Source of the DNA: Nitrospirota bacterium
GTDB taxonomy: Bacteria > Nitrospirota > JACRHL01
Direction: 5' to 3'
Assembly: GCA_029881725.1 (NCBI GenBank)
Contig: JAOUMB010000011.1
Span: 1 to 64,000, forward strand
Length of the DNA stretch: 64,000 nt
The notes beneath the pieces are model-generated. The model was given only the letters and a program-made list of their open reading frames with translations. It had not been told where the DNA came from and made no database searches. The translations under genes and the position numbers were made by a program. Position 1 is the stretch's first letter. Every line of letters begins with the position of its first letter. Positions 83-60,716 of this stretch are shown piece by piece.

Positions 83-104
83 ACACCCGCCAGGGGGCGG
101 GTGT
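83..104 (+). terminator. Hairpin after the transposase tail
   Basis: A perfect 9-bp stem (ACACCCGCC at 83-91, complement at 96-104) with loop AGGG lies 4 nt after the transposase stop. There is no T-tract, so it may be a weak terminator or a structure shielding the IS from outside transcription. Confidence 0.4.
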
Positions 105-127
105 CAGGTAATTACTGTCACTGTACA
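102..127. repeat. Putative terminal end of the insertion sequence
   Basis: Read from the pglX side, the element would begin with TGTACAGTGACAGTAATTAC and continue inward. Many IS families start with TGT. PglX homology stops at this point (about position 128), which places the IS/pglX junction here. The other IS end is outside the window, so the inverted repeat and target duplication cannot be confirmed. Confidence 0.45.
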
Positions 128-2461
128 AACATTCTGCCAATGGCCCAGGTTGAAAGGCACTTTCACAAGTGTGGCGTTGGTAACTTTTAGACTCTGATCA
201 ACCTGCCTTACCACCTCGTTGTATTCGGAGGAAGAACAAAAGCACCAGATGGCGGGAAGGTTTGCCTCGTCTTTCGGGACAATAACTGCGACATTCTGGT
301 GAAAGCGCTCTTTCCCATAATGGTAGGCGAACAATGTTCCCATTCGGTGGATTGCAACACCGGGTCTACCGACGGCCTTTAGGCCTTTTGTTGGATAGGC
401 TGTTGGGAGGGAAAGTAGCAGTCCGTTTCCCTGCTCCCATTTAACCAGCCACGACCACCCGTCAAACCCATGAAACCTGTCGGGCGTTGCTTGCAGGAAT
501 TCCCAGGTAGCCTTGTCAACGCTTCCCTGCTCCCAAAAGGCTTCGACAAACATGGGGTCGTCGCTGGTTTGCATCCCAACTAGCCCATCAGCATATTTAC
601 TCAGGGTAGACTGCTCCGCAGTTTCCTCAAGCGCAATCCGCGCATCTGGATTCCCTAACTGACCCCGCTGCCCCACCGCCACCACCTTGTCAGCGATCAG
701 CTTTGCAGCCTTCTCTCTCGCCGTGCGCGGTTCACTCACATCCAGGCCGTGTATTTGCTGCCCGGTGTCGGGCCGAGCATGGGTGAGGGTAAGCAACTGG
801 ACGTTGAAGTCCCACATTGGAGTTTGAAACCCTTTTGCACCCAAGCGCACCAGCAGGTTCCATGTCTCTCGAGTCAGGAGACGCTCACGCTGCTTCTTAT
901 AGCTGGTGAGGAACAGCCAATTCTGGGGCATTACGATCTGGGTGACGCCCCCCTCACTGCACATTTCTAGCAAGCGCTCCAGGAATACGTTGGCCAAGTC
1001 GTTCTTGGCGTTGGCGTAGCGCTTGGCGCAGAACTCCTTGAGCGCATCCGTCTGCTTGCCCCTCGCCAGATATGGCACGTTGGTGATGACCAAGTGGTAA
1101 CGCTGGCCCAACAGGTGCGCAGCCACGGCCAAACCCTTGGCGGCAATGGCCGTCTCCTCGAACTCCACCTCTCCCTGGTGTTCCGTGAGGGCGATTTCCA
1201 ATGTCTTCTGAAGCTCGTCGAAACCGGCCGTGAACAGGTTCTCCCGCACCGCCCGGCGGGGATCGATGAGGCTGCCCAAGAGTGGCGCCTCGCGGAACGT
1301 GTCGTACAGGTCCATCATACCGGTGCGCAGGTCCTCGTCCCCGCCGGCCAACTCCAGCCACGCCTCCCGTTTGCCCGTCACTGGCTGACCGCACCAGGCC
1401 AGGTTCAGGGACGGCAGCGGGCGGTACTCGCCGGCACCGGGGTAGCGCCACGCCTCCAGGGCCAGGGCGAAGGCGGCGATTTCCACGCAGCGCCGGTCAA
1501 TCTCCAGGCCGTGGAGGTTGTCCCGCAGCACGGCGTCCACCGCCTCCCGCGCCGCAACCCCCTCCAGTGCCATGCGCATGGGCACCAGCAGGTGGAACGC
1601 CGCCACCAGGAAGTGCCCCGACCCGCAGCACGGATCGAGCAGCTTGAATTCGGTCAGGTCGTCCGGCCACGCGGGGAAGGTCCCCGCCGCCGGTGTGCCG
1701 TCCTCCAGCGTGCGCAGGTAGGTGAGCTTCACCGGGCAGGCACTGTCGGGATGCCGGCTAACCCACCACGCCCCCAGGGAGTTGTGCAGGAGGAACCGCA
1801 CCATGTAAGGCTCGGTGAAAAGCTGGGTGACCGCCGGCAGCTCGTCCGCACCGATCTTCACCTCCGAGGCGTTGACCTCCTCCTTCCGCTTGCTCTGCCA
1901 GAACTGGTAAACCCACCCCAGGGCGTCCGTCGCCTCGAAAGTCTCGGCGGGGAGCCCCTCCAGCAGCTTTTCCAGCTTGATCCGGTGTTCGCGCGCGAAG
2001 GTGACCCCGAAGGCCGGGTGACCGGCGCGGAAAACCTGGGGCAGCATCCGCTGGGCGAAGCGGCCAGCGAGGGTCCACGGGTCGGTGCTCTGCTCCTTGG
2101 CGAGGTGCTCACACTCCTCCAGGGTGATTGCGACCCCCAGCTCTGGCTCCATCAGTAGGTGGTTCTCGGCCAGGAACCGGGCGAATAGCATCCGGTGCCA
2201 GTGCTCATAGGCACACTCCTGCACCAGGTGGCCGATTCCTTGCGTGCCTGCCTTGGGGTCACGCGGATCTCCGAGTTGCCGGCCATGTGCCCGCAAGCGG
2301 TTCCGTAGCGTGCGCTGGTCCACCCCCATGTGGCCGTAGGGCTCGTGGTGGTGGACCGCCAGCGCCTCCAGGGCGGCCCGTGCCCCCTCCTCGGCCACGT
2401 CCCGGGCCTGAACGATCACGCGGGAGAGTTGGCTACGAAGCTCTGAGGACAGGACTGGCAT
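104..2461 (-). CDS. pglX: BREX adenine-specific DNA methyltransferase PglX, 3'-truncated by IS insertion
   Basis: PglX is the site-specific N6-adenine methyltransferase of BREX phage defence; it marks host DNA and is needed for exclusion. Seen: SAM-binding motif I DPCCGSGHF (residues 276-284) and the motif IV region as NVPY (461-464) in place of canonical NPPY. The start is ATG 2461, with AAGGGGG 5 nt upstream and 10 nt after the original end of brxC. The frame is 785 aa against roughly 1,150-1,200 for complete PglX. The last recognisable residues are HWQNV, after which seven residues come from the IS end. The C-terminal part, which in this family contributes to target recognition, is lost, so the product is probably inactive or altered. 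Confidence 0.85.
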   Translation of the reverse strand: MPVLSSELRSQLSRVIVQARDVAEEGARAALEALAVHHHEPYGHMGVDQRTLRNRLRAHGRQLGDPRDPKAGTQGIGHLVQECAYEHWHRMLFARFLAENHLLMEPELGVAITLEECEHLAKEQSTDPWTLAGRFAQRMLPQVFRAGHPAFGVTFAREHRIKLEKLLEGLPAETFEATDALGWVYQFWQSKRKEEVNASEVKIGADELPAVTQLFTEPYMVRFLLHNSLGAWWVSRHPDSACPVKLTYLRTLEDGTPAAGTFPAWPDDLTEFKLLDPCCGSGHFLVAAFHLLVPMRMALEGVAAREAVDAVLRDNLHGLEIDRRCVEIAAFALALEAWRYPGAGEYRPLPSLNLAWCGQPVTGKREAWLELAGGDEDLRTGMMDLYDTFREAPLLGSLIDPRRAVRENLFTAGFDELQKTLEIALTEHQGEVEFEETAIAAKGLAVAAHLLGQRYHLVITNVPYLARGKQTDALKEFCAKRYANAKNDLANVFLERLLEMCSEGGVTQIVMPQNWLFLTSYKKQRERLLTRETWNLLVRLGAKGFQTPMWDFNVQLLTLTHARPDTGQQIHGLDVSEPRTAREKAAKLIADKVVAVGQRGQLGNPDARIALEETAEQSTLSKYADGLVGMQTSDDPMFVEAFWEQGSVDKATWEFLQATPDRFHGFDGWSWLVKWEQGNGLLLSLPTAYPTKGLKAVGRPGVAIHRMGTLFAYHYGKERFHQNVAVIVPKDEANLPAIWCFCSSSEYNEVVRQVDQSLKVTNATLVKVPFNLGHWQNVCTVTVIT

Positions 2462-2471
2462 AAGTTCCCCC

Positions 2472-2642
2472 TTACGAAATCACCACCGGACCGTCTTTGA
2501 GCTTGCCGGCCAGCGCCTTACGGGTCTCGTCCAGCCAGGCTTCGACATCCTCCTGGGTGCGCAGGGTGCCGCTGGTCAGCTTCATGCGCTGGATCTTGGG
2601 CTCCAGCAGCCTCTCCGCCTCCAGTCGGGCATCGGCGAACTG
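2472..2642 (-). pseudogene. brxC: Detached 3' end of brxC downstream of a premature stop
   Basis: Directly after the TAA at 2643-2645 the same frame stays open for 56 codons to a second TAA at 2472-2474. The translation begins QFADARLEAERLLEPKIQRM and ends GPVVIS, which reads like the natural BrxC C-terminus. The natural stop sits 10 nt before the pglX start, as expected in this operon. The intact gene would encode about 1,148 residues, so this is a nonsense mutation and not the native end. Confidence 0.75.
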
Positions 2643-5600
2643 TTATGGCAAAGCCTGGGTCTTGGTCACCCAGCCGTCCAGGGGAATGCGATCAAGCGAC
2701 TCCAACACCTGCTGGTCGGCACCCAGCGCGCCCTTGTCCAGCTTGGTCACGCCCACCCGAGCAAGGATGGCGACGCGGTCACCCTCCTTGATCTTCTGCC
2801 AGCACTCCGCGCCCTCCAATGCCGCCATCTCGGCGTCGAAGGTCTTCTCATACACCGCATGTCTGGCGGTAACCTCCTGCCGCAGCCCGTCCACAAGCGC
2901 CTTGGTCAGGTTCGGCACCGGATCAGACTCGTCCAGCAGGCTGCGCTCGGAGAGCACGGCGTCGTACTGCGGCTGGATCTCACCCCCAAACACCTGACCC
3001 TCCGCGTGCCCCATGAAGGCAGACAGGCGCTGAAAGGCAGGCAGGCGTTTCTCGGCCAGGGCCCTGGCCTTTGTCCACTGCTCCAGGTTGGCCGTAAGGT
3101 CGGCCTGCTTCTCGACGATGGCTAGCAACTGCTCGTTACCGGCCAGAGAACGCAGTTCGGTCAGGTGCCCGGTGCCGGGCCGCTGCGGCAAGGGCGGCTC
3201 GCCTCCGGCCCCGCTGGCAAGCTCCAAAAGTCTGTCCAGCAAGGGAGCTGCCGCGGCTCCCTCCTCGTTGGGCTTGCACGGAATGCCCGCCTGCTGGTAA
3301 AGCTTACGCAACGCCAGGCGCTGGTGGGTGGTGACGGTCGCCGACTCGACCCGGAAATCCGTCTGGGAGACCTTGGCCTGGTCGAGTCCTCTCGGCTGCA
3401 ATGCCACGCCGCCGCTGGCGGCACGGAGGTGCCCCCCGGCAAACAGGCTGATCAGAGCGGCGTCAACCGCGTCCCGTGGCCAACCGTAGGGCGCCTCGGA
3501 AAAATGCGCGCGCACGTCCTTGCCCTTCTTGCCGGATCCAATGAAGGAACGCACCGCCGAGCAAACGGAATGGTCCTCGGTCTTGCCGTTGAAGTCGATC
3601 GCCTCCAGAGGATGCTCGGCACCCTCCCTGGCCCGCTCGATCACCTTCGGCCAGTTCTTGTGGTCGGCCTGGGCAAATTCGTGGAACAGACGGTCCAGCG
3701 ACGCCTCGGCAGTAGCCTGTATTTTCTCGACCAGGGTGGTTTCAAAGCGCTCGTTGCCGCCACCCTGGATCACCTTGGCGCCATCGATGACGCTGGCAAT
3801 CAGCGTCTTGCGGGTGCGCTCGGCTTCCAGCAGGCGGGTCCGCATGGCCTCCTGGGCCTCTTCCCCTTCCTTGGTGCCGGGGACTCCCTTGAAGTCCAGG
3901 GTCTCCTTGGCCGCCGTCTCCTCGGCGATCGCCTTGCGGAGCGAGTCGGATTGCGCCTTGGGGATGAACACCGAAATGACCGGACTGTCCGGACCCGCCG
4001 CACGGGCATCGGCGACCACCGACTTAGCCTCGGTCGACCATTCGTCCCGGATCCACACAGGGATGTCGTGTCCGGTGGGGGCTGGGGCCTCCGAACCAAA
4101 GTAAAGGGAAAGCTTGCGTGGTTCCTTGCATTTGCCGTGCGTGAGCTTGAGCGAGCCAACCGCCACCTGGACTGCCCCCGTGAGGTGCTGGCCTCGTTTG
4201 CTGCCCATCCGCGCCGTGTCGTTTGACAACGTGTCGCGTCGGTTGCGGAACTCCTGCTCCCATTCACTGCTCTCGCGCGTTTGCAGGCTGAACTCGTTGT
4301 CCACCTTGATCAGTGTGCCGGTCTGGACCAAGGCGTCGAGCAGTTGCGGTACCTTGGCGCGCAACGCCGAGCTTCGGCCCGCAAGGTCGGATACCAGCAG
4401 GTCCGAAAGGGTTTCAGCCGTGGCCCGGACGCCGATGTCGACGCCCGGATCACGCGGGATCTTGCGGATCAGGAACACCAACGCGCACATGCGCGACCTG
4501 AGCTTGCCATCCTCGGTGCCGTCGTCCTGCCGCCGGATGATCTCGTGGATTTCCCGCAGGAGGACGCCGGATTGCAGCAGGTTCGCGGCGAGTTCATCAA
4601 ACAGGAAGTCAGCCGGGACCACCGTGCCCAAAGGGGCGTCGGCGGTCTGCCGGATGGCGTCATACACGATGCGCAACTGGGTCCGCAGCTGCCCGGCCGT
4701 GCCGGCCTTGTCCACGGCCCGCAACACGTGTTCCCAGAACCGGCGCCGGACCGGCAGGAGCGGGTAGTCGTCCACGACAACCGCCTTGTCCTCCGTCCGG
4801 GGACCGATCTTGGTTCCGGTAAGCTGGCGGTCGATTTCACCGGAGTTGGCTTCGAGGACCGACTTTACCGCCGTGATCCGGTCGGGGCGTTTGGCGAGAA
4901 CCACGCGGCGGGTCACGGTTTCCACATCGTGGTCCGATAGCTCCACGTTGACCGTGAAGCGGCCTTGCAACCGCTGGAGCGCCGGCGTTCCGGACAAGGC
5001 CGTCTGTCCCGTACCGACGAACAACAGGCGGTCTCCAAAGCGCTTGCTGCAGGCCTCCACCACCTCCTGCACCACATAGGACCGCGCCGTATCCTCGCCG
5101 ATGTACTGCTGGACCTCGTCGAGAATGACCACCGTACAGGGCATTTCCATACCTGCCGGGGCGAGCACGTCCTGCATGGCGCCCACGAACTCATCGTTGG
5201 TGATGTCCTTCGGCTTGGGGAACTGGGCCCGCAAGCTCGTCTTGGCTTCGCGCTCGTCTGCCGCAAAGGCGGGGTCCGCCGCGAGTAAGGCCTTGGCGAT
5301 CAGCGGGCTGACATAGAGGTCGTTCAGTTCCCGGCGGAAGTCGCGTCCCGCTTCCTCCACCTCCGCACAGACCTGGTCGTACATCCCGTTTTTCTTGAGC
5401 CACAGGCAGAAGCGAGCCTGGGGGTAGCTCTCTGGCAGCTCGGCCGACTTGAACACGATGCCGAGGAGCGCGAGCCGCACACTCTCACCCGATCCAGACC
5501 CGAGGGTGCCCGCTGCGGCGCGTAGACCTCCGTAGCGCTTGCCCAAGGTGGACATCTCCTTGAGCAGGTCCAACACATCATCGGGCAGCCGCGCCAGACC

Positions 5601-5918
5601 GCGGGCGGTTGCGCCGTCTTCCAGAAAGGTGTAGTCGACCCACAGGTAGCGGAGCATCTTCACGAGGTGCGATTTGCCGCTGCCAAAGAACCCGCTCACC
5701 CACGCTGCCGGCTGTTCCGGCTGCCCAATATTGGTGGTGTAGGACTCGAGAATCCTGACCAACCCCCGCTGGTACTCGCCTTCACAGACAAAGTGCTCCA
5801 GCTCGAACCGGAGGGTAAGACGTTCCTCATCCGTCAGGACGTCGGTAACGGCCGCCACGCCGTTATTCAACAGCGCGATCGAATCCGGGTCGCGCTGGTA
5901 GATTTCACGATTGTTCAT
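2643..5918 (-). CDS. brxC: BREX ATPase BrxC (P-loop), ended by a premature stop
   Basis: BrxC is the large P-loop ATPase of type-1-like BREX. Seen: Walker A GFFGSGKS at residues 76-83, within a typical BrxC N-terminus starting MNNREIYQRDPDSIALLNNG, and a long helical C-terminal half. It starts at ATG 5918, overlapping the end of brxB by 4 nt (ATGA), which indicates translational coupling. The frame is 1,091 aa and ends in an in-frame TAA, with 56 further family-like codons following. Loss of the last 5% of the protein may or may not abolish function. Gene order brxA-brxB-brxC-pglX matches BREX type 1. Confidence 0.9.
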   Translation of the reverse strand: MNNREIYQRDPDSIALLNNGVAAVTDVLTDEERLTLRFELEHFVCEGEYQRGLVRILESYTTNIGQPEQPAAWVSGFFGSGKSHLVKMLRYLWVDYTFLEDGATARGLARLPDDVLDLLKEMSTLGKRYGGLRAAAGTLGSGSGESVRLALLGIVFKSAELPESYPQARFCLWLKKNGMYDQVCAEVEEAGRDFRRELNDLYVSPLIAKALLAADPAFAADEREAKTSLRAQFPKPKDITNDEFVGAMQDVLAPAGMEMPCTVVILDEVQQYIGEDTARSYVVQEVVEACSKRFGDRLLFVGTGQTALSGTPALQRLQGRFTVNVELSDHDVETVTRRVVLAKRPDRITAVKSVLEANSGEIDRQLTGTKIGPRTEDKAVVVDDYPLLPVRRRFWEHVLRAVDKAGTAGQLRTQLRIVYDAIRQTADAPLGTVVPADFLFDELAANLLQSGVLLREIHEIIRRQDDGTEDGKLRSRMCALVFLIRKIPRDPGVDIGVRATAETLSDLLVSDLAGRSSALRAKVPQLLDALVQTGTLIKVDNEFSLQTRESSEWEQEFRNRRDTLSNDTARMGSKRGQHLTGAVQVAVGSLKLTHGKCKEPRKLSLYFGSEAPAPTGHDIPVWIRDEWSTEAKSVVADARAAGPDSPVISVFIPKAQSDSLRKAIAEETAAKETLDFKGVPGTKEGEEAQEAMRTRLLEAERTRKTLIASVIDGAKVIQGGGNERFETTLVEKIQATAEASLDRLFHEFAQADHKNWPKVIERAREGAEHPLEAIDFNGKTEDHSVCSAVRSFIGSGKKGKDVRAHFSEAPYGWPRDAVDAALISLFAGGHLRAASGGVALQPRGLDQAKVSQTDFRVESATVTTHQRLALRKLYQQAGIPCKPNEEGAAAAPLLDRLLELASGAGGEPPLPQRPGTGHLTELRSLAGNEQLLAIVEKQADLTANLEQWTKARALAEKRLPAFQRLSAFMGHAEGQVFGGEIQPQYDAVLSERSLLDESDPVPNLTKALVDGLRQEVTARHAVYEKTFDAEMAALEGAECWQKIKEGDRVAILARVGVTKLDKGALGADQQVLESLDRIPLDGWVTKTQALP

Positions 5919-6478
5919 GGGGCGTGCACTCCGTCATGTGCCGTGATCGGAACCGCAAGGTAATTCCAGCCATCACGTGCGTCCAGCAAACGATAATTGT
6001 TGTTTTCGTAATCACCTGGAAAGAAAACGACGATCCGACCCCGGATATCGTTCTCAACGTCTTTCATAAGGTCGGAAACATGCGCAAACCCAAGAAGTGA
6101 CGCCAGGCCAAACACGGCCACCACGGTCTGTTCATCCGCATCGTCAGCGGTGAGTTGCCGCCGGACCCGCTCTGCAACGTGCTCCCGAAACTCCTCTTCC
6201 AGTTTTAGGCCGAGATCTTCCGGGTAGTTGAAGTACTCCTCTTGGTATTCGGTAGCCCCCATCCATTCCGGGAAAGCGGGGGTAAGATCGCATTCCTTCC
6301 AGGGGTGGCCGGATTCCTCTGTGGCCAATGCAAATAGCTCCCTCCGCGAGCGCAACCGCCTCTCGTCCGTTTTGTCATAGACCACAAATACGGCCTTCTG
6401 AGCGCCGGCCAAGTCCTTCTGCCACGGCAGTGATATGTAGCTCTTGTAGCTCTCGACAAGCTTCTCGATACGCCCCAT
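5915..6478 (-). CDS. brxB: BREX protein BrxB (DUF1788 family)
   Basis: This 187-aa protein has the size and character of BrxB/DUF1788, a small conserved BREX component of unknown biochemical role. Seen: N-terminus MGRIEKLVESYKSYISLPWQ, a central RRELFALATEES segment, and a C-terminal RIVVFFPGDYENNNYRLLDA segment typical of the family. It begins 5 nt after the brxA stop and its last 4 nt overlap the brxC start. The tight spacing makes brxA-brxB-brxC one translational unit. No catalytic motif is visible. The reading frame looks intact. Confidence 0.88.
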   Translation of the reverse strand: MGRIEKLVESYKSYISLPWQKDLAGAQKAVFVVYDKTDERRLRSRRELFALATEESGHPWKECDLTPAFPEWMGATEYQEEYFNYPEDLGLKLEEEFREHVAERVRRQLTADDADEQTVVAVFGLASLLGFAHVSDLMKDVENDIRGRIVVFFPGDYENNNYRLLDARDGWNYLAVPITAHDGVHAP

Positions 6479-6483
6479 ACCTG

Positions 6484-7290
6484 CTAACCCTCCAACCGTC
6501 CGAGCAACTCGGGGAAAGACACGTCAACAATCGACCCGGACTGTTTTAACTCCAGTAGCCCCAGCCGTTTGGCGTCAGCGGCGAGGTTGATCAGTTCCGC
6601 CGGCGGCGTGTCCAGAACAGCAGCCCAAGGCGTCTCGAAAAGCAGGGGCCCGCGCCGCCCGAGCAGGTAGCCGAGCGCCAAGGCGAACGCGCATGCCGCC
6701 GGCGTAGGTTGCACCCGCTGGCGAATCTTTCGGACACGCCCAGACAGATGGCCGGCCTGCGCCCAGGAGGAAGCCGCGTTTCGGGCCACCTTATCGATGA
6801 TCGATTCATTCATCCGGTGGCCGATTGTGCGCACAAGGTCGTCTGTCAGGCGTTTTCTCGACAACTCCTCGCCAACCGGCGTCCCCAAGATGGTGGGGGC
6901 ACTGGCCCTCAGTAGGGGATCACGCGCCAGCGCTGTAAGCAGGGCGAGGAGGGGTCGGCTTGACTCGTGGTGCCCCCAGATATCCCGCAGGATGCGGAAG
7001 AGGGGAACCGCTGGATCGAGGCCATACAGCTCGCTCAATCTCTGTAGCGAGAGTTTTCGGGTGGCCGAAGTGCGCTTGGCGAGGCAGTTGCCTTCCAGGA
7101 CAGCATGGGCATAGTCAGCTCGCCCCGCCTGGCCCGGAACAACGTCAAGAAGCATGGTGAGCTCCTTGAGCATGATGGTTCGGCTGGTATGGGTACCCTT
7201 GTCGCCGAGCCGGAAGCCCCAACGCTCCGTAATCACGGCTGACCCCGGGCCGAATGCCCCCTGAAAATCAATGCTGGCCAATCTCGTCAT
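6484..7290 (-). CDS. brxA: BREX protein BrxA (DUF1819-like), probable leaderless start
   Basis: This is the first gene of the BREX operon, 268 aa from ATG 7290 (MTRLASIDFQGAFGPGSAV). Position and size fit BrxA, a small helical DNA-binding BREX protein; the sequence itself is divergent and the call rests largely on context. The frame can be extended to ATG 7350, adding 20 residues. I prefer 7290 because a good promoter (TTGACA, 16 nt, TATAAC) lies inside that extension, with its -10 box only 7 nt before ATG 7290, implying a leaderless mRNA. No Shine-Dalgarno sequence precedes either start. Confidence 0.75.
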   Translation of the reverse strand: MTRLASIDFQGAFGPGSAVITERWGFRLGDKGTHTSRTIMLKELTMLLDVVPGQAGRADYAHAVLEGNCLAKRTSATRKLSLQRLSELYGLDPAVPLFRILRDIWGHHESSRPLLALLTALARDPLLRASAPTILGTPVGEELSRKRLTDDLVRTIGHRMNESIIDKVARNAASSWAQAGHLSGRVRKIRQRVQPTPAACAFALALGYLLGRRGPLLFETPWAAVLDTPPAELINLAADAKRLGLLELKQSGSIVDVSFPELLGRLEG

Positions 7291-7297
7291 AAAGTGG

Positions 7298-7348
7298 GTT
7301 ATAGCGGCCAGAATCGGACTGTCAATTTTCGCCGGCAAACTTGCCGGC
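7298..7348 (-). promoter_or_regulatory. BREX operon promoter with upstream palindrome
   Basis: On the minus strand, -35 TTGACA (7320-7325) and -10 TATAAC (7298-7303) are 16 nt apart. Just upstream of the -35 box is an 18-bp palindrome, GCCGGCAA (7331-7338) with spacer AC and its complement TTGCCGGC (7341-7348), flanked by TTTTC/GAAAA arms. The position suits a repressor or activator site. No brxR-like regulator gene is next to it. Confidence 0.55.
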
Positions 7349-7350
7349 AT

Positions 7351-7846
7351 GAAAATCTAGTTATTCGGTTCGTGCTGGCGCATCTCGGCTCTCCGAGCAA
7401 TTACCAGCTCACTTGATTGTCACCTTACCCGTACGATGGCCCTCCTCAACCGCACGGCCGATCGGCGACCAAGGCAGTGGCTACGCTGGTCGAGACTGGC
7501 TCGTTTACCGAACCCCCCTGCAAGCGGCCCGGCCCCGCGAGTGTTTTGCGGCGCACCTCGAACTGCCTCAAGCGGGCACATCGAATCGTGCTGGGTGTTG
7601 CGAGGCCCAGCTCCACTACGGAAAGGCGGGCCAGTTGGCCCACCCTCCGACGGAAATAGGATTCCAGTCGGTTTCCGTTTTTTAGCCAGCCGCAGCCATG
7701 GTGAGAACACCGCCAAGCCCTTTAAACAAGGGCTACTTCGCCATTCCGACTGGATTCAAGGGCGGAAGGAAATCCGACTTTTTGTTTCTCTCTCTGGTGG
7801 AACTTCGCGGCTACGCGACCGCGCAGGGATTTGCCGTGAAGGTACC
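7351..7846. other. Gene-free stretch between brxA and fic
   Basis: No convincing gene is seen here. Overlapping short frames exist in several phases, but none has a good start, known motif or supporting context. A short CGGAAA/TTTCCG inverted repeat followed by six T lies near 7650-7685 and could be a weak rightward terminator. The stretch may contain remnants of a deleted gene, for instance a BREX regulator, but nothing recognisable remains. Confidence 0.5.
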
Positions 7847-8974
7847 TTACGCCGCCGGTGGATCATTCAACGCGTAGCTGGTACTGCGCCCACCCGCTTC
7901 GGACTTGCGCAATGCGCCGTGGGCCAGCAGTTCGTTGATGTCGCGTAACGCGGTATCCGGCGAGCACTTGGCGATGGCCGCCCACTTGCTGGTCGTGAGC
8001 TTGCCCTCGAAGCCGTCGAGCAGCCGGTTGAGCAGCTTTACCTGCCGTGGGTTCATCGGTGTGCCGGCAAAGTGCTGCCAGAAGCGCGCCTTCGCCAGGA
8101 CCGCATCGAGGGCGTGCTGTGCCTGATCGACCGCGCGGCGCAAGGTGTCGAGGAACCAGGCGAGCCATTCGGTGACGTCAAGTGTTCCCTTCTGGGTGCG
8201 CTCCAGGATGCCATAGTAGGCCTTGCGTTCACGCTGGATCTGCGCCGAAAGGCTGTAGAAACGTTGCGGACTGCCGTCAGCGCGCGCCAGCAGCAGGTCA
8301 CCGATGGCGCGGGCGATGCGGCCGTTGCCGTCGTCGAACGGGTGCAGGGTGACGAACCATAAATGGGCGAGCCCCGCCTTGATGAGGGACGGTTCACCCG
8401 TCTCGCCATTGATCCAGCCGAGAAAACGGTCCACCTCCGATTCGATGTACGCCGCCGGCGGTGCCTCGAAATGCACGCGCTGGCGGCCAACAGGCCCCGA
8501 CACCACCTGCATCGGGCCGCTGGCATCGTCCCGCCAACCGCCGACCGTGATCCGGCCAAGGCCGGAGTAGCCAGTGGGAAAGAGCGCCGCATGCCAACCG
8601 AACAACCGCTCCCGCGTCATCGGGTCATCCCGATTGGCCGTGGCATCGAGCACCATCTCAACCACGCCTTCGACATGCCGGTCCACTGGTGCCACGGCAC
8701 CGATGTCCACTCCCAGACGGCGGGCGATGGACGAGCGCACGGACTCGGCGTCGAGCCGCTCACCCTCGATCTCGCTGGTCTTGACCACGTCCTCGGTGAG
8801 CGCCGAGAGGCTCGCCTGATCGCGCAAGGCCATGCCGACATCGGCCAGGCGTCCCATGAGCAGACCCTGGGCACGGCTGACCTCGGCCAGGAGGCCGGCA
8901 AGCGCGCCCAGGTCGAAACGCCAGGCGGGCCAATCGTCAGCCTGCCAAATGTAAGCATAATCACCGCGATTCAT
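7847..8974 (-). CDS. fic: Fic family protein adenylyltransferase with N-terminal inhibitory helix
   Basis: Fic enzymes transfer AMP from ATP to hydroxyl side chains of target proteins. Seen: complete Fic core HPFDDGNGRIAR at residues 211-222 with catalytic His211, and an N-terminal inhibitory motif TSEIEG at 66-71 fitting [S/T]xxxE[G/N], so this is a class II (self-inhibited) Fic. The first 60 residues look like the DUF4172 domain often found with it, and the last 80 resemble a winged-helix DNA-binding domain. ATG 8974 lies inside a perfect inverted repeat, suggesting autoregulation by that C-terminal domain. It is intact (375 aa) and lies within the island between BREX and the replication module. 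Its target is unknown. Confidence 0.9.
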   Translation of the reverse strand: MNRGDYAYIWQADDWPAWRFDLGALAGLLAEVSRAQGLLMGRLADVGMALRDQASLSALTEDVVKTSEIEGERLDAESVRSSIARRLGVDIGAVAPVDRHVEGVVEMVLDATANRDDPMTRERLFGWHAALFPTGYSGLGRITVGGWRDDASGPMQVVSGPVGRQRVHFEAPPAAYIESEVDRFLGWINGETGEPSLIKAGLAHLWFVTLHPFDDGNGRIARAIGDLLLARADGSPQRFYSLSAQIQRERKAYYGILERTQKGTLDVTEWLAWFLDTLRRAVDQAQHALDAVLAKARFWQHFAGTPMNPRQVKLLNRLLDGFEGKLTTSKWAAIAKCSPDTALRDINELLAHGALRKSEAGGRSTSYALNDPPAA

Positions 8975-12658: not shown

Positions 12659-13536
12659 CAGTCCACCCAGTAGCGGCGTCGATTCTTGGTGCGAAGCTCG
12701 GTTACGTGGTTCGGCGTGAGCTCATCAGCGCCGTGAAGCCCCAGCATGATGTTGGTGGCGATTGCGGTTTCGGTGTTGGGTGCGCGGCCGGGGCTTTTCT
12801 TGGTGGTGCCGTCCTCGTATTCGATCATGGGATTGACCCATCCATCCAGGACATCGAACACATGGAGCGCCACAAAGGTACGGAGCGCAGTTTCGGCCCG
12901 CTTCTTGGTCGGGACGTACTTGCGCGTCGCCTCGTCAAACGCGTTGGGCCAATCCCCGTACCTCAGGCATTCGGCCAGACCGGTAAGGTATTCCGCCAGC
13001 GTTGGAACGGCATATTCGCCTGTAAATGGGCCGTTCCGAATGGTCACATGGTGGCGAGTGGGGTGTTCTCCGGGGACCCTTGCCAAAAACAGCGGTGTGA
13101 TATCCACCCCCTCTTCCGCCAAGGTCTTTAGGTCGGCCGTTCGGGCATAGGAGTCAACCAGAACGTCCCCATCCAAAATGGTGACCGGAGCAACGTCCAT
13201 ATCGTCCGCCAACTCCCGCGCCAACGCACCGACTTTTTCGGCCAGGATCTCTAGACGCTCTTTCCGGTCCTGGGTCCGCTCGTCTTTCATGGACTCCCAC
13301 TTTCCGGGAATCTCGGTCAGGCTCTTGATGAAGAAGGTGGCCGTGGCCGCCCATTCCTCATCTTCCTCATCGGAGGCCCTTTGGCGTAGCCGCTGGAGCA
13401 ACTCGGGGGTCCGCTCGTCCCTATCCAGGAGGGCGAAATACGGATTGGACTCCCGCCAGCCTTCGTAGTCAGCCTCTTCAGACCAACCCTCCCCGAACAG
13501 GGGACGCAGATGACCGTCGGCGGGCTCGCTCTCCAT
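12658..13536 (-). CDS. Unknown 292-aa protein coupled to the integrase
   Basis: I do not recognise the family. The start ATG 13536 shares one base with the integrase stop (TGATG), so translation is coupled and the protein is likely to serve the element, for example in excision, maintenance or cargo. Seen: an acidic, Glu/Asp-rich soluble protein without signal peptide or membrane segments. The first third is charged and probably helical, the middle contains PVTILDGDVLVDSY, and the C-terminus is basic (LRTKNRRRYWVD). No catalytic signature is apparent. The gene is intact and ends within a terminator-like hairpin. Confidence 0.7.
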   Translation of the reverse strand: MESEPADGHLRPLFGEGWSEEADYEGWRESNPYFALLDRDERTPELLQRLRQRASDEEDEEWAATATFFIKSLTEIPGKWESMKDERTQDRKERLEILAEKVGALARELADDMDVAPVTILDGDVLVDSYARTADLKTLAEEGVDITPLFLARVPGEHPTRHHVTIRNGPFTGEYAVPTLAEYLTGLAECLRYGDWPNAFDEATRKYVPTKKRAETALRTFVALHVFDVLDGWVNPMIEYEDGTTKKSPGRAPNTETAIATNIMLGLHGADELTPNHVTELRTKNRRRYWVD

Positions 13537-14753
13537 CACGCCTCCCGCCGTAGCGGCACGATCTCCGCACCGTTCTTCAGCCGCTCCAGGTAGTCCGCCC
13601 ACTGCTGCATCATGGCGCGGCGCTCCTTGAGGAACTTGGTGCGGTTGTAGGCGGTGCCGAGGATGTCCGGTACCTTGTGGGCGAGCTGGTGCTCGATCAC
13701 CTCCGGCTTCACGTGCAGTTCCTCTGCGATGATGGTGCGGGCCATGGCGCGGAAGCCGTGGCCGGTGATGTCGGTCTTGGTGTCGTAGCCCAGGCGGCGC
13801 AGGGCCGCGTTCACCGCAGCCTCGCTCATGGGTTGTTTGGGATCCCGGCCGGGGAAAACGAAGCGCCCCTCCCCGCTCAAGGGGTACAGCTCCCTCAGGA
13901 CGGCCACCGCCTGTCGGGCCAGGGGGACCAGGTGCTCGGTGCGGGTCTTGGTGGCGGTGAAACGCCACTCGGCCCGGTCCAGGTCGATCTGGCTCCATTC
14001 CGCCTTGCGCAACTCGCCGGGGCGGACGAAGAACAGAGGGGACAGGCGCAGGGCGCATTGCACCACGAAGGTGCCCTTGAAGCCGTCGATGGCCCGCAGC
14101 AACTCACCCACCATCTTGGGATCGGTGATGGAGGCGAAGTGTGTGCTCCGCGCCGGCGGCAGGGCGTCCTTCAGGTCGGCGGAGGGATCCCGCTCCGCCC
14201 GGCCGGTGGCGATGGCGTAGCGAAAGATCTGGCCGCAGGTCTGCTTGGCCTGGTGGGCGGTGTTGATGGCGCCCCGGTCCTCGATGCGCTGCAGCACCTT
14301 CAAGAGTTCCGGCGGGGTGATTTCTCCCACCGGACGGTCGCCGAGCCAGGGGAACAGGTCCACCTCCAGCCGGCGGGCTACCTTCTTACTATAGGAAGAG
14401 GCCCACCCCTTGCGAGACGACATCTTCGGCAGCCACTCCAGGGCCACCGACTTGAAGCTGCTGGTGACCACCTCCTCCTCTTCCCGCCTGGCCGCCTGGC
14501 GGTGGGCACTGGGGTCGATGCCATTGGCCACCAGCCTTCGCGCCTCGTTGAGCCGGATGCGGGCGTCCTTCAATGAGATATCGGGATAGACCCCCAGGGA
14601 GATGGTCTTCTCCTTGCCATCGAAGCGGTATCGGAAGCGCCACCACTTGCCTCCGCCGGGGCTGACCAAAAGGGACAGGCCCCGCCCGTCCGTCAATTTG
14701 TACTGTTTTTCCCGAGGCTTGGCGTTTCGAACAGCGGTGTCGGTGAGGGGCAT
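13536..14753 (-). CDS. int: P4-type tyrosine integrase
   Basis: This site-specific recombinase integrates and excises the island at tRNA-Phe. Seen: an N-terminal DUF4102/arm-binding domain (about 1-90, starting MPLTDTAVRNAKPREKQYKL), a core-binding domain (100-200), and a catalytic domain with Arg244 (RPGEL), His332-x-x-Arg335 (HGFR), His359 (QLAH) and nucleophile Tyr369 (AYNRT). At 405 aa it has full family length and all catalytic residues, so it is probably active. It lies 163 nt from the tRNA 3' end and reads away from it. The start codon is embedded in a 14-bp inverted repeat, so integrase binding could repress its own expression. Confidence 0.95.
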   Translation of the reverse strand: MPLTDTAVRNAKPREKQYKLTDGRGLSLLVSPGGGKWWRFRYRFDGKEKTISLGVYPDISLKDARIRLNEARRLVANGIDPSAHRQAARREEEEVVTSSFKSVALEWLPKMSSRKGWASSYSKKVARRLEVDLFPWLGDRPVGEITPPELLKVLQRIEDRGAINTAHQAKQTCGQIFRYAIATGRAERDPSADLKDALPPARSTHFASITDPKMVGELLRAIDGFKGTFVVQCALRLSPLFFVRPGELRKAEWSQIDLDRAEWRFTATKTRTEHLVPLARQAVAVLRELYPLSGEGRFVFPGRDPKQPMSEAAVNAALRRLGYDTKTDITGHGFRAMARTIIAEELHVKPEVIEHQLAHKVPDILGTAYNRTKFLKERRAMMQQWADYLERLKNGAEIVPLRREA

Positions 14754-14916: not shown

Positions 14917-14992
14917 TGGTGCCGAGACACAGAATCGAACTGTGGACACGAGGCTTTTCAGGCCTCTGCTCTACCGACTGAGCTATCTCGGC
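14917..14992 (-). tRNA. tRNA-Phe (anticodon GAA)
   Basis: The 76-nt minus-strand gene begins GCCGAGATAGCTCAG and ends TCTCGGCACCA, with encoded CCA. The 7-bp acceptor stem, D-loop AGTCGGTAGA, anticodon loop CTGAAAA (GAA) and T-arm with TTCGATT are all present. The integrase lies just beyond its 3' end, so this tRNA is the probable island attachment site, and the intact sequence shows that integration regenerated the gene. Confidence 0.97.
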
Positions 14993-50716: not shown

Positions 50717-50722
50717 TATAAT
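50717..50722 (+). promoter_or_regulatory. -10 box of the redox operon, leaderless geometry
   Basis: A perfect TATAAT ends 8 nt before the ATG of the monoheme lipoprotein gene, leaving room for at most 1-3 leader nucleotides. No clear -35 box or ribosome binding site is seen. Confidence 0.5.
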
Positions 50723-50730
50723 TGGCGGTT

Positions 50731-51033
50731 ATGAAGCGGTTTCTCCGGGGTATTCGCTGGTGGCTTGCCATCCCGTTAATCACCGGATGCATGCAACCGT
50801 TCGAGGTTCCCGATGCCGAGACCGCCGACGGCAAAATATATGTCCGCCGGTGCAGTCTGTGCCACGCCCTGCCCGACCCGGCGCGGATGACTTACACCCA
50901 GTGGGTGGGGGTGGTGGGGCGGATGGCTCAAAACATTCGCTCCCAGAACGTCCCCCAGGTCAGCGACGAAGAATTCCAGCAGATACTGCTCTACCTGAAA
51001 CGCCATGCAAAGCCAGCCGAAATCGCTCACTAA
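50731..51033 (+). CDS. Monoheme c-type cytochrome lipoprotein
   Basis: This 100-aa protein has a signal peptide (MKRFLRGIRWWLAIPLITGC) with lipobox ITGC, so it is predicted to be anchored to a membrane facing the periplasm. A single heme site, CSLCH, follows at about residue 46, with downstream Met residues (RMTYTQW, GRMAQNI) as possible axial ligands. Such small lipoprotein cytochromes shuttle electrons. It is the first gene of a tight five-gene redox operon, and the next gene starts 29 nt before its end. A TATAAT box lies directly upstream. Confidence 0.85.
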   Translation: MKRFLRGIRWWLAIPLITGCMQPFEVPDAETADGKIYVRRCSLCHALPDPARMTYTQWVGVVGRMAQNIRSQNVPQVSDEEFQQILLYLKRHAKPAEIAH

Positions 51034-51631
51034 ATTTCTTGTGCCCGCCCTGCTGGCCATAACGCTTGCGTGTCCGATGCCGTCCTCCGGGGCGTCCCTC
51101 CTCGCCGTGGACGAGGCGTTGTTCACCCGTGCCCAGATCCTGCGGGTGGACACGGACCGCGCGGCCCCCTCCTTCGAGCTTCCCGACCTGCAAGGCACTA
51201 CGGTCACGCTGGAGGATTACCGGGGCAAACTGGTGGTCCTCAATTTCTGGGCCACCTGGTGCCGCCCGTGCATTCGAGAGATGCCGGCTCTGGAGCGCCT
51301 GTCCCGGCAGTTGGGCCCGGACGGCCTGATCGTACTCGCCATCTCGCTGGACCGGGACAACAAAGAGTCCGTGCAGGCCTTCGTGGAAGGATACGGCTGG
51401 AAATTGCCGGTGCTGCTGGACCCGTTTGCCGACGTGGGCGACGCCTACCTGGTGTCGGCCATGCCATCCACCTATGTAATCGGCCCGGAGGGCACGATCT
51501 ATGGCCGCGCGCTGGGCCCCCGCGAGTGGGACGGCGAAGCGGCCCTCACCCTGTTTCGTGCCCTTCTGGCACCGGAGCCGGGCGCTCCGGACGCCTCATC
51601 CCGTTTAATCGAATCCAAAGACAGGAGTTGA
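51005..51631 (+). CDS. TlpA/ResA-like thioredoxin-fold protein (periplasmic)
   Basis: This 208-aa protein has a Sec signal (LTKFLVPALLAITLACPMPS, possibly a lipoprotein signal) and an AhpC/TlpA-type thioredoxin fold: APSFELPDLQGTTVTLEDYR, active site WCRPC near residue 100 and cis-Pro loop SAMPSTYVIGPEG. Such proteins reduce disulfides in apocytochrome c or copper-site proteins. It overlaps the preceding cytochrome gene by 29 nt and precedes the DsbA-like gene by 5 nt. Confidence 0.88.
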   Translation: MQSQPKSLTKFLVPALLAITLACPMPSSGASLLAVDEALFTRAQILRVDTDRAAPSFELPDLQGTTVTLEDYRGKLVVLNFWATWCRPCIREMPALERLSRQLGPDGLIVLAISLDRDNKESVQAFVEGYGWKLPVLLDPFADVGDAYLVSAMPSTYVIGPEGTIYGRALGPREWDGEAALTLFRALLAPEPGAPDASSRLIESKDRS

Positions 51632-51636
51632 ATCCC

Positions 51637-52284
51637 ATGTTCAAAACCATCGCACGCTGGCTGATGCCGGCACTGCTGGCCGTCACGCTCGCACCCGCCG
51701 CGGCATTGTCCGCCGACGCCCCGGACGGGGCCGCAAACAAAGAAGACCTTGCCCCGTTTGTGGTACTGGATCGCAAAAGTACCCACAAGAAGGGCCAGGT
51801 GAATGTAACCGTCTACTTCGATTTCTACTGCAGCCACTGCCATGAGTTCGACAACAAGGTGTGGCCGGTGCTGGTCAAGGAGCACGGTGACACGTTGCAT
51901 GTTACCTGGGTGGGCATGCCGATCGTCGACCCGGCTGCCTCACCGGTGACCGTTCTCGCCTTTTATCTGGCAGACGCGCAGGGCAAGGGGGAAGAAATGC
52001 GAAACGCCCTGTTTTCGGCCATCTGGAACCACCGGCTGGACCCGTCAAAGCCCGACGTCCTGCTCGGGATTGCCACCCAGCTGGGGCTGGATCTGAATCG
52101 TTTCAAGCGCGAATTCAATGAAAACGTGATGGTGGAGCGCATGGAGGACGGCATCAAGCAGGCCCGCGCCATCGGCGCCCGTGGCACCCCGACCGTTCTG
52201 CTCGACAACCATATCCGGGTCACCGGTTACGGCATCAAAAACGTCGAGGCGGCCATCGCCGAGGCATTGAAAGCCGACGGCTGA
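51637..52284 (+). CDS. DsbA-like thiol:disulfide oxidoreductase/isomerase
   Basis: This 215-aa protein has a signal peptide (MFKTIARWLMPALLAVTLAP) and a DsbA-family thioredoxin fold: VYFDFYCSHCHEFDNKVWPV with CSHC active site and cis-Pro segment GARGTPTVLLDNHIRVTG, with a helical insertion between. The His-rich active site (CSHCH) resembles DsbA/DsbG-type proteins. Its stop shares one base with the next start (TGATG). The ribosome binding site is GGAG. It could oxidise or isomerise substrates that the neighbouring TlpA-like protein reduces. Confidence 0.9.
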   Translation: MFKTIARWLMPALLAVTLAPAAALSADAPDGAANKEDLAPFVVLDRKSTHKKGQVNVTVYFDFYCSHCHEFDNKVWPVLVKEHGDTLHVTWVGMPIVDPAASPVTVLAFYLADAQGKGEEMRNALFSAIWNHRLDPSKPDVLLGIATQLGLDLNRFKREFNENVMVERMEDGIKQARAIGARGTPTVLLDNHIRVTGYGIKNVEAAIAEALKADG

Positions 52285-53108
52285 TGCACCGCTTGCTGCC
52301 CATGGCCCTTGCGGCACTCTGCCTGACCATACTGCACGCGTGTGCCGGTCTTGCCGTGACCGAAGATGCGCCGCCAGGAACCACGGCGCAGGCCGTTGTG
52401 GGACCACGGCTGCAATTCGAAAACCTGGAGCACCACTTCGGCACCATCACCCAGGGCAAGCTCGTGGAGCACCGGTTCCCGTTCACCAACGTGGGCGATC
52501 AAGACCTGACCATCTCCGAGGTTTCCACTCCCTGCGGTTGCACCGCCGTGCTTGCGGACCAGGAAGTGGTTCCCCCCGGCAGCTCCAGCTTTGTGGACGT
52601 GACCTACGACTCCGCCGCACGCAGTGGCGAGGTGGTGCGCATTATCACCGTCATCTCCAACGATGCCGAACAACCGGAAATGGAGTTGAAGGTGGTGGCC
52701 CAGGTGGATGCCTCCCAGCACGCGGGCTTCATGGTGGGCGACACCCTGTTCGGACCCAAGTGCGGTAGCTGCCACTACGACACCGCCGCGGAAAAAAGTG
52801 GCCAGGAGTTGTACGACGCGGTGTGCTGGTTCTGCCATGGCACGCACCGCCAGGGCAATACCGCCACCGCTCTGGACGCTTACCAGCCGGCCATGGACGG
52901 CTATCTGCGCAAGGTCATTTCGGACGGGCTTCCTGGCACGGAAATGCCGGGATTTGCAAGAAACCATGAAGGTCCCCTGTTCCCCGAACAAATCGACTCA
53001 CTCGTGGATCTGCTGCATGACCCTCCCCCGCCCCCGCCCGACCCTGAACCCGGAGTGGAAGAGGAACCGAAGGATGGCTTCGACCCGTCCCGCCCGTTCT
53101 TCCAATAG
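52284..53108 (+). CDS. DUF1573 domain fused to diheme cytochrome c
   Basis: This 274-aa exported protein has a signal peptide with a possible lipobox (LTILHACAG). Residues about 40-150 form a DUF1573/immunoglobulin-like domain (PRLQFENLEHHFGTITQGKL, FPFTNVGDQDLTI, STPCGCTAVL, where the CGC pair is typical). Residues about 155-250 contain two heme sites, CGSCH and CWFCH, with Met residues downstream (TEMPGFARNHEG). A Pro-rich acidic tail ends it. The fusion of a DUF1573 domain to cytochrome c is unusual in my experience. It is translationally coupled to the DsbA-like gene and overlaps the next gene by 35 nt. Confidence 0.85.
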   Translation: MHRLLPMALAALCLTILHACAGLAVTEDAPPGTTAQAVVGPRLQFENLEHHFGTITQGKLVEHRFPFTNVGDQDLTISEVSTPCGCTAVLADQEVVPPGSSSFVDVTYDSAARSGEVVRIITVISNDAEQPEMELKVVAQVDASQHAGFMVGDTLFGPKCGSCHYDTAAEKSGQELYDAVCWFCHGTHRQGNTATALDAYQPAMDGYLRKVISDGLPGTEMPGFARNHEGPLFPEQIDSLVDLLHDPPPPPPDPEPGVEEEPKDGFDPSRPFFQ

Positions 53109-53505
53109 GGTTTTCCGATGCATGGTCGGGCTGGCTGCCCTGCTGTGTGCCGCGTGCACGGCACCCGCCGACCACACGGGCACGGCGGGCACGTACACCG
53201 TTACCGTGCGCGCGGAACCCAATCCGGCCGCCCTTGGTGACACTCACCTGACCGTGACCGTGACCGACGCCAACGGAAAGGCGGTACCCGATGCCATGGT
53301 AACGGCCCGCATGTTCATGGCCGGCATGCCAATGAACACCGACGACGACCTTCTGCCCGGAACCCCTCAGGGCAAGGGACGCTATGTCGCCGCCGGAGAG
53401 TTTTCCATGGGTGGAAACTGGCAGGTGGAGGTGTCCGTCACCCCGGACAATGGAAAAAGCGTCACCGCCACATTCCCCTACACCATTGAATGGAAACTGG
53501 ATTAG
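53074..53505 (+). CDS. YtkA-like periplasmic/lipoprotein domain, Met-rich
   Basis: This 143-aa exported protein has an Arg-containing N-region and hydrophobic segment (MVGLAALLCAACTAP) and then a YtkA-like beta-sandwich (YTVTVRAEPNPAALGDTHLT, AVPDAMVTARMFMAGMPMNT, GRYVAAGEFSMGGNWQVEVS). The MFMAGMPM stretch and later SMGG are possible Cu(I)/Cu(II) ligands, as in related FixH/YtkA and CopC-like proteins. ATG 53074 has GAGGAACCGAAGG just upstream; ATG 53122 is an alternative. It is the last gene of the redox operon and suggests a copper link. Confidence 0.75.
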   Translation: MASTRPARSSNRVFRCMVGLAALLCAACTAPADHTGTAGTYTVTVRAEPNPAALGDTHLTVTVTDANGKAVPDAMVTARMFMAGMPMNTDDDLLPGTPQGKGRYVAAGEFSMGGNWQVEVSVTPDNGKSVTATFPYTIEWKLD

Positions 53506-58686: not shown

Positions 58687-59784
58687 CTATGGCGCGGTTG
58701 CGGGCGGATCGGAGGGAAGCTCGGGGGCGGCTATCGGATGCAGATCACCGGTAAGTGCGTTCAGAAAAGCAATCAGATCAGCCTTTTCCGCATCGGTCAG
58801 TTCGAACGGCTGGATGTTGATATCCAGATTCGGATTTGGAGTGGCGCCCCGAATGTAGAAATCGACCACCTGTTCCAGGGTGGCAAAGCGGCCATCGTGC
58901 ATATAGGGAGCAGTTGCCGCCACATTGCGTAGCGTGGGGGTGCGAAAGGCACCCCGGTCTTCCGGGTTTCCCGTCACCGCCTGTCGGCCAATATCCGGCT
59001 GCGGGTGATCCATGCCCACACCAACGTTGTGGAAGCGGAAATCCGTCAGATCGGCGGAAAAATCGTCAAACCGGTGGCACTTGGCACAGTTGGCGCGCTC
59101 CTTTTCGCGGAACAACTCCATGCCACGAATCTGTGAGGCGGTCAGGGCGGATCGCTCCCCTTTGTATTTGTAGCGGTCAAAGGGTGAAGCTCCCGACACC
59201 AGCGTTCGCTCAAAGGCAGCAATGGCCTGGACAATCCGCTCCACAGTCACCTTGCGGTCGCCAAAGGCGCTTTCAAAGAACGGCCCGTACGCGGGGATGC
59301 TGCTTATGGCATCCACCACCCCGGACAGGGTATTGCCCATCTCCACCGGATTCACCAGCGGGCCCGTAGCCTGCTCCTCCAGCGAACCAGCCCGCCCATC
59401 CCAGAACAGGGTGTCCGCATAGGCGGCGTTGAGAATCGTGGGAGCACTGCGGATACCGGTCTGTCCGCGCACACCGAAGGCCAGTGACAGGCCGTTGCTC
59501 CATCCCAGAGCCGGATTGTGGCAGGAGGCGCACGCCACGGTACCATCTCCCGACAGGCGCGGATCGAAAAAAAGCCGTGTTCCCAGCGCCACCTTCTCCG
59601 ACGTCTGTGGGTTTCCCGCCGGAAACGCAACCGGGTCCAGACCTGCTGGAGCCTCCCCGTGCTGCCCGGGATGAATCTGAATACGATGCACCTTGGGCGC
59701 TTCCAGTTCACCTGCGTGCCCGGCCAGAGGCGCGGACCAAGATACTGCACACAACAGCAGGCCGAAAATCCAGAACCCACGCAT
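58687..59784 (-). CDS. Diheme cytochrome c peroxidase (CcpA/MauG family)
   Basis: This periplasmic 365-aa protein has signal peptide FWIFGLLLCAVSWSAPLAGH, two heme sites CASCH and CAKCH, and conserved LFWDGRAGSLEEQATGPLVN, ALTASQIRGMELF and FRTPTLRNVAATAPYMHDGR (Met ligand). These fit bacterial cytochrome c peroxidase, which reduces H2O2 using cytochrome electrons. MauG-type enzymes are close relatives and cannot be excluded. ATG 59784 starts the signal peptide. It follows nadK by 56 nt at the end of a leftward gene run. Confidence 0.93.
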   Translation of the reverse strand: MRGFWIFGLLLCAVSWSAPLAGHAGELEAPKVHRIQIHPGQHGEAPAGLDPVAFPAGNPQTSEKVALGTRLFFDPRLSGDGTVACASCHNPALGWSNGLSLAFGVRGQTGIRSAPTILNAAYADTLFWDGRAGSLEEQATGPLVNPVEMGNTLSGVVDAISSIPAYGPFFESAFGDRKVTVERIVQAIAAFERTLVSGASPFDRYKYKGERSALTASQIRGMELFREKERANCAKCHRFDDFSADLTDFRFHNVGVGMDHPQPDIGRQAVTGNPEDRGAFRTPTLRNVAATAPYMHDGRFATLEQVVDFYIRGATPNPNLDINIQPFELTDAEKADLIAFLNALTGDLHPIAAPELPSDPPATAP

Positions 59785-59840
59785 GGTCGGCGCATGGACC
59801 CGGTCGGCACACCCCATCGACCGGGGGGCACCACGGGGGA

Positions 59841-60716
59841 TCATGGGATCAATTCACCGCCCCACTTGAGCTTGGTGCGCAACACCTCGAAGTAGTTGCG
59901 CTCCGGGGAGACAATCAGATTCAGGCGGTTCTCCGCGGCACGCACCTGAATCACATCTCCGGAACGCAGCGAAAATCCTACCTGGCCATCGAAGGTAACC
60001 ATCGACGCCTCCTCCTCACTGACCAGTTGGATTTCGATATTCGACCCATGGGGCAGGATGACCGGGCGGTTGGTCAGCACATGAGGTGAAATGGGAGTAA
60101 GGACAATCACGTCGTTTTCCGGATGCACAATCGGCCCGCCCGCCGACAAGCAGTAGGCGGTGGAGCCGGTGGGCGTGGCAACAATCAAGCCATCGGAACG
60201 TAGCCCGGTCATGAACTGCCCGTCCACCGAAATGTGCAGCCGGATCATGCGCGCCAGGGTTCCCTTGCTGACCACCACATCGTTCAGGCAATAGGAGGAG
60301 GCCACGACCTCTCCCTGCCTGAGCACCTCCGCTTTCAGCAGCAGGCGCTTTTCGATGGAGACGTCTCCCGCCAGCACTTTTTCTAACGTGGAGAGCATTT
60401 CGTGGGTAGGGATTTCAGTGAGAAAGCCCAAGGATCCCAAGTTAATGCCCAGCAGCGGGATCTCAAAATCCACCAGCAGGCGGGCCATGGAAAGCAGGGT
60501 GCCGTCACCCCCCAGCACAATGATCAGATCGACCATGCTGGGAATATCCGCCTTGCGGTGGGGCGAGGTTTCACCGATCAGCTTGGCGGTCATGTTGTCC
60601 ATGAACACCTGGTGATCCCGCTCATCCAGCCACGCGCGCAGGTCTTTGAGCACCGTCGCGGCACCGTCATGGTGCAGCTTGGCAATGATGCCGATTTTCT
60701 GGATTGGCAGGTTCAC
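59841..60716 (-). CDS. nadK: NAD kinase
   Basis: NadK phosphorylates NAD to NADP. The 291-aa protein has GGDGT at 69-73, the LLGINLGSLGFLTEI segment, CLNDVVVSKG and GLIVATPTGSTAYCLSAGGP, all family hallmarks. The start is GTG 60716, with GGGGG about 11 nt upstream. It lies 30 nt after the TPR lipoprotein gene, which suggests co-transcription. Confidence 0.97.
   Translation of the reverse strand: MNLPIQKIGIIAKLHHDGAATVLKDLRAWLDERDHQVFMDNMTAKLIGETSPHRKADIPSMVDLIIVLGGDGTLLSMARLLVDFEIPLLGINLGSLGFLTEIPTHEMLSTLEKVLAGDVSIEKRLLLKAEVLRQGEVVASSYCLNDVVVSKGTLARMIRLHISVDGQFMTGLRSDGLIVATPTGSTAYCLSAGGPIVHPENDVIVLTPISPHVLTNRPVILPHGSNIEIQLVSEEEASMVTFDGQVGFSLRSGDVIQVRAAENRLNLIVSPERNYFEVLRTKLKWGGELIP

Follow-up and report, generated by a model that had tools for sequence, protein, structure and literature searches.

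A putative periplasmic redox operon of Nitrospirota pairs a DsbA-like protein with a DUF1573-diheme protein that has predicted selenocysteine-containing relatives

The DNA analysed here, a 64,000-nt stretch of a Nitrospirota genome that we refer to as the window, carries at 50731-53505 five genes, all on the + strand and partly overlapping, as judged from the list of open reading frames and the sequence itself, Table 1. According to the ORF coordinates, g1 and g2 overlap by 29 nt, g3 and g4 by 1 nt and g4 and g5 by 35 nt, and g2 and g3 are spaced by 5 nt; the 35-nt overlap holds with the g5 start at 53074, and an alternative in-frame ATG at 53122 abolishes it. A five-gene operon with these overlaps and domains had been described in an initial annotation, and the ORFs and Pfam matches confirm it, with g1 being recognised from motifs. 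That annotation had placed the locus at 50717-53505; the end stands, while the start falls at the TATAAT box and is replaced by a probable start codon of g1 at 50731. The box lies 7-11 nt upstream of the g1 start in 4/4 genera of the host family, f1, and this spacing suggests a leaderless or nearly leaderless operon mRNA.

Table 1 Features of the operon and their positions in the window
Feature	Position	Strand	Basis or remark
TATAAT, -10-like box	50718-50723	+	7 nt upstream of g1 start codon; near-leaderless promoter candidate
g1, small lipoprotein, one CxxCH heme motif (CSLCH), lipobox LITGC	50731-51033	+	Sequence motifs
g2, TlpA/ResA-like thioredoxin-fold protein, WCRPC	51005-51631	+	Pfam AhpC-TSA/Redoxin
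g3, DsbA-like thiol oxidoreductase, CSHC, cis-Pro TPT, signal peptide	51637-52284	+	Pfam DSBA
g4, DUF1573 (TPCGCT; C84, C86) followed by c-type cytochrome region with two heme motifs	52284-53108	+	Pfam; alignment
g5, Met-rich YtkA/CrdA-like probable copper-binding lipoprotein, FMAGMPMN	53074-53505	+	Pfam YtkA/FixH

We read g1 as a probable monoheme lipoprotein from its lipobox and its one CxxCH motif; its family hits in Pfam and NCBIfam were all sub-threshold and consisted of weak cytochrome profiles only. The thioredoxin/AhpC-TSA fold, the WCxxC motif and the signal peptide of g2 place it among TlpA/ResA-like proteins, its nearest NCBIfam profiles being ResA and TlpA, at scores short of the equivalog cut-offs, and its nearest solved structures 3kcm, ResA and TlpA. 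It is not the sole TlpA-like protein of the host, since another is found in a single cluster elsewhere in the genome together with CcmF, a CcmG-like protein, CcmH and CcdA. At the other end of the operon, g5 matches YtkA (2e-14) and FixH (1.5e-5) in Pfam and Helicobacter CrdA (9ll2) by phmmer (E 8e-5), and its structural model (pLDDT 81) retrieves CrdA (E 2e-7) and PmoD (E 3e-4) in Foldseek. We assign it a YtkA domain with a predicted CrdA-like fold, and this match by sequence and fold makes the copper binding that had earlier been named as possible a likely role.

The two central genes are more firmly anchored in known families. With a DSBA match (PF01323) at 2.9e-18, a CSHC active site and the cis-Pro TPT, g3 belongs to the DsbA family, and it has DsbA relatives among the solved structures. 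In g4, a DUF1573 domain (PF07610; 85.3 bits against a gathering score of 26.1, E 3e-24) is combined with a Cytochrome_CBB3 domain (PF13442; 33.9 bits against a cut-off of 27), and the protein has two CxxCH motifs, CGSCH and CWFCH (C160xxCH and C181xxCH), as well as Met221. From the domain and the motifs we take g4 to be a c-type cytochrome with two predicted heme attachment sites. All 13 aligned homologues (alignment A1) keep C84, G85 and C86 of the T-P-C-G-C-T motif, and likewise the two CxxCH motifs, unchanged. The AlphaFold model of g4 is confident for the DUF1573 domain and not for the heme region, and gives no confident arrangement or distance between the CGC motif and the hemes; Foldseek recovered only Ig/ASH-type domains with it, and the only solved structure matched in sequence over the DUF1573 domain was 2qsv, an uncharacterised protein.

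The gene order is conserved beyond the host genome. All four sampled genera of f1 (4/4 genomes) keep the order g1-g4 and have the operon adjoining hisS, HU and sppA, and g5 follows g4 in three of the four, the contig of the fourth genome (G002) stopping at that point. In a close relative (G001), g1 and g2 are fused into a single 288-residue protein. The initial annotation had asked for a neighbourhood survey and allowed that the order might not be conserved outside this genome; the survey dismisses that caveat and bears out the description of a conserved periplasmic redox operon of thiol-disulfide and heme proteins. When neighbourhoods were compared across families, f8 and f2 were found to retain just the core of DsbA (g3) and DUF1573-diheme protein (g4), without the TlpA-like g2 and without the copper-like g5. 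In f8, six loci carry the two genes downstream of lon-like and thiL-like genes (neighbours read by eye), and the pair overlaps by 4 nt, as at 1882-1885 in L024. In f2, the DUF1573-diheme gene lies downstream of a YajQ-like gene and continues in frame into DsbA: at L041 the cytochrome reads on into KYIVLKDLKNSHEKGKVKMTVFFDFYCGHC, with 21/30 residues identical to the f8 DsbA at the junction, and the fusion extends to FFDFYCGHC, where the contig ends, so that it is seen intact only to that point. In a second copy (L039) the junction is the same; after it the reading frame changes and the CxxC part of DsbA is lost. The contigs of three f2 genomes (L031, L032 and L033) stop within or just past the DUF1573-diheme gene, near the DsbA fusion, perhaps as a result of an assembly problem.

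The g3-g4 linkage is thereby found in three Nitrospirota families (f1, f8 and f2), each time with different neighbours, and this recurrence in three contexts, with at least one fusion, is the strongest sign in the sequences of a joint function. A chance run of ORFs was ruled out, because the pairing recurs in these three contexts and the organisation in other genera. A scan of genome contigs returned no match with a single protein as query and 39 loci with the alignment as query, the full-length DUF1573-diheme forms among them coming from Nitrospirota and one oddly titled metagenome contig. L042, titled Slackia heliotrinireducens and derived from a mine metagenome, is a GC-rich contig whose title may not match its sequence, and its DUF1573-diheme gene is interrupted by a single stop at the C84 position.

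The identity of residue 84 differs between families. By profile search, DUF1573 or DUF1573-cytochrome matches occur in 105/396 Nitrospirota genomes, and in the full-length forms of f4, f20, f21, f27, f30 and f34 a TGA stands in place of the C84 codon, and homology continues past it. On the 3' side of the TGA we find a hairpin with an AGUU loop in which 94% of cells are paired over 19 distinct sequences and 6/7 pairs have changed on both sides (0/500 for shuffles; slid controls at most 49%). Strong matches to tRNA-Sec, above the cut-off, are present in most of the Sec-form genomes, and none above the cut-off in the f1 or f8 genomes, including G000. In-frame UGA, covarying SECIS and tRNA-Sec together identify the DUF1573-diheme proteins of these sister families as predicted selenoproteins, so that one and the same predicted polypeptide carries a selenocysteine or cysteine site and two c-type heme motifs; selenocysteine at position 84 argues for a redox site. 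The g4 of the window is not itself a selenoprotein, its codon 84 being TGC (L087), and most plausibly represents the cysteine form of this selenoprotein family, because the sister families have the TGA, the SECIS hairpin and tRNA-Sec and no tRNA-Sec is found in f1 or f8. L091-L106 and more Nitrospirota loci, whose DUF1573-diheme genes contain a TGA in frame and a conserved SECIS hairpin, apparently represent an undescribed family of heme-containing selenoproteins.

Checking the neighbours, we found the Sec forms to be single genes with no DsbA directly adjacent, and the 32 genomes with stand-alone forms (mostly Sec) have DsbB in 0/32 and a VKOR-like match in 5/32. Given these two observations, we take the DsbA link of DUF1573-diheme proteins to be clade-specific. 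At L119, a Sec-form locus, a DsbA-like match lies about 1.3 kb from the DUF1573-diheme gene with another ORF in between, and the stretch at about 6300-8175 near that gene holds the DsbA-like match and, by eye, a probable MauG-like cytochrome.

A DsbA-family oxidant needs to be reoxidised, usually with DsbB or VKOR in mind as partner. Neither was detected in 14/14 f1, f2 and f8 genomes with a linked or fused g3-g4 pair, including G000-G003. Relatives without a linked pair have DsbB or VKOR in 10/47 genomes, against 0/14 for those with one, a difference of about p 0.06 (one-sided) if kinship among the genomes is ignored. The absence is consistent with transfer from DsbA to g4 and is not decisive; it is weak evidence, because most relatives without the linked pair lack both proteins too. 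Across the phylum, complementarity between DUF1573-diheme proteins and DsbB/VKOR is weak. The f1, f2 and f8 genomes contain DsbD_TM/CcdA-type matches and COX1-family proteins, and two more DsbA-like proteins are encoded in the host genome, one periplasmic, with its gene next to secDF-like genes, the other probably cytosolic.

We tentatively propose, with somewhat less than even confidence, that the operon encodes two periplasmic thiol-heme redox pairs, and that g4 accepts electrons from DsbA and feeds them via its hemes into the cytochrome chain. DsbA (g3) would oxidise exported proteins, its presumed substrates, and would then be reoxidised, presumably by direct contact, by g4 at Cys84-Gly-Cys86 (with selenocysteine at 84 in the sister families); from this site the electrons would move to the g4 hemes and on to a cytochrome c / cbb3 oxidase chain, a route that would take the place of quinone-linked DsbB or VKOR. 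The oxidase at L154 in the host genome is read as probably cbb3-type from its FixO and COX1 matches. A redox partnership of DsbA and g4 is supported by their pairing and fusion and by the Sec form. Other families conserve DsbA and the DUF1573-diheme protein without TlpA or copper-like proteins, which suggests that electrons passing between thiol and heme, and not the delivery of copper, are the core of the system. The second pair, the TlpA-like g2 and the one-heme lipoprotein g1, adjoins g5 and is confined to f1; this pair would probably hold the cysteines or the copper of a metal site in the proper redox state, and it and g5 are f1-specific additions, perhaps for such a site. More doubtful is the broader claim that Nitrospirota form disulfides independently of DsbB, through DsbA, a thiol or selenol DUF1573 protein with c-type hemes and a cytochrome c chain, with the DUF1573-diheme proteins constituting a new family of heme selenoproteins.

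The initial annotation suggested that the operon could serve specifically to mature a copper- or heme-containing enzyme. In its present form, this idea would have g5 carry copper, g2 keep the cysteines of the copper or heme site reduced and g3 with g4 tune the redox state, for instance for CuB of a cbb3-type oxidase. TlpA-type proteins are known reductases of copper sites, FixO and COX1 genes are present in the genome, and g5 resembles CrdA, more weakly PmoD, and has weak FixH similarity; for Bacillus YtkA/CtaK, a role together with Sco in CuA assembly has been postulated (PMC13344008). Against this, the operon has no gene for an oxidase, a nitrite reductase or an N2O reductase next to it within the 64-kb window, and none is apparent at its side in the relatives examined; the annotation had advised looking for such linked genes. 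In addition, f8 and f2 retain g3-g4 without g2 or g5, and general cytochrome c maturation is provided for by a separate CcmF/CcmG-like/CcmH set with CcdA at another place in the genome. CuA assembly as the target of the operon was rejected, there being no CuA-type COX2 subunit in any f1 genome and none near the operon. Taken as a whole, we consider enzyme maturation somewhat unlikely, and as a dedicated function it is not supported.

One could also let the electrons run in the opposite direction, with the diheme protein reducing the DsbA-fold protein and g1 reducing TlpA, as a CcdA-independent reductase or isomerase arm. The g1-TlpA fusion in G001 would fit such an arm, and periplasmic heme-thiol electron transfer has a precedent in Shewanella, where the c-type cytochrome NapB is proposed to exchange electrons with the thioredoxin-fold CcmG by reducing it (PMC8782879), although NapB is a nitrate reductase subunit and this direction is opposite to the one favoured here. 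We regard such a reversal as improbable, CcdA being present and able to serve TlpA. Heme-to-thiol flow would also be uphill, because oxidants typically have a CxHC motif like that of DsbA, and Met ligation in the cytochrome region points to a high-potential heme. Equally improbable, in our view, is that the CGC or UGC motif of g4 binds a metal or a reactive sulfur or selenium species that the hemes oxidise or reduce, DsbA only maintaining the cysteine pair or the heme cysteines. The existence of Sec forms without adjacent DsbA speaks for this, as do the uncharacterised state of 2qsv and a literature search that found no established biochemistry for DUF1573, whereas the in-frame fusion with DsbA and the lasting association of the two proteins speak for a closer partnership.

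Compared with DsbA-DsbB and DsbA-VKOR, the favoured arrangement of DsbA and g4 shares a DsbA-family oxidant that requires reoxidation and, in f2, an in-frame fusion with its presumed partner, VKOR-DsbA fusions being known; it differs in that DsbB and VKOR are not detectable, the partner is a DUF1573-diheme protein and the electrons would reach cytochrome c, not quinone. Thiol electrons also go to cytochrome c in the mitochondrial Mia40-Erv1-cytochrome c relay, which consists of unrelated, flavin-based proteins. As to TlpA/ResA/CcmG with CcdA, g2 has their fold and WCxxC and CcdA is in the genome, but g2 is an additional copy associated with a heme lipoprotein, distinct from the Ccm cluster and its CcdA-adjacent TlpA-like protein. 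CrdA, YtkA (CtaK) and PmoD share the fold and Met-rich loop of g5, but f1 lacks a CuA oxidase subunit, and the operon a copper pump and a Sco-type gene. Reviews list DUF1573 (PF07610) selenoproteins with the motif UGC (PMC13188914, PMC9312934), the NCBIfam counterpart being OS_HP2; the domain is the same, with Sec or Cys in the matching motif, whereas the protein described here combines it with a two-heme-motif cytochrome and has DsbA as a linked or fused partner. We found no heme or DsbA link for these selenoproteins in the literature searched.

The individual domains are known. Neither their combination nor the DsbA fusion nor the selenocysteine-diheme form appears to have been described in the literature searched, which left out preprints and most subscription journals; it likewise yielded no named system of the same composition, in agreement with the initial annotation. 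Many Nitrospirota have DsbA-family proteins and no detectable DsbB or VKOR, and a g4-type protein, linked or fused to DsbA and equipped with heme motifs as well as a Cys/Sec site, offers a concrete candidate for the reoxidant. If this is true, disulfide formation in bacteria would have cytochrome c as a further electron acceptor, and the DUF1573 selenoproteins, an uncharacterised family, would gain a function.

Elsewhere in the window, BREX-like defence genes (PglX, BrxC and BrxA) and a Fic-family gene occupy 104-8974 on the - strand, and a phage-type integrase gene (13536-14753) adjoins a tRNA-Phe gene (14917-14992), suggesting a genomic island. A MauG-like di-heme cytochrome c peroxidase gene lies 5 kb from the operon, at 58687-59844 on the - strand.
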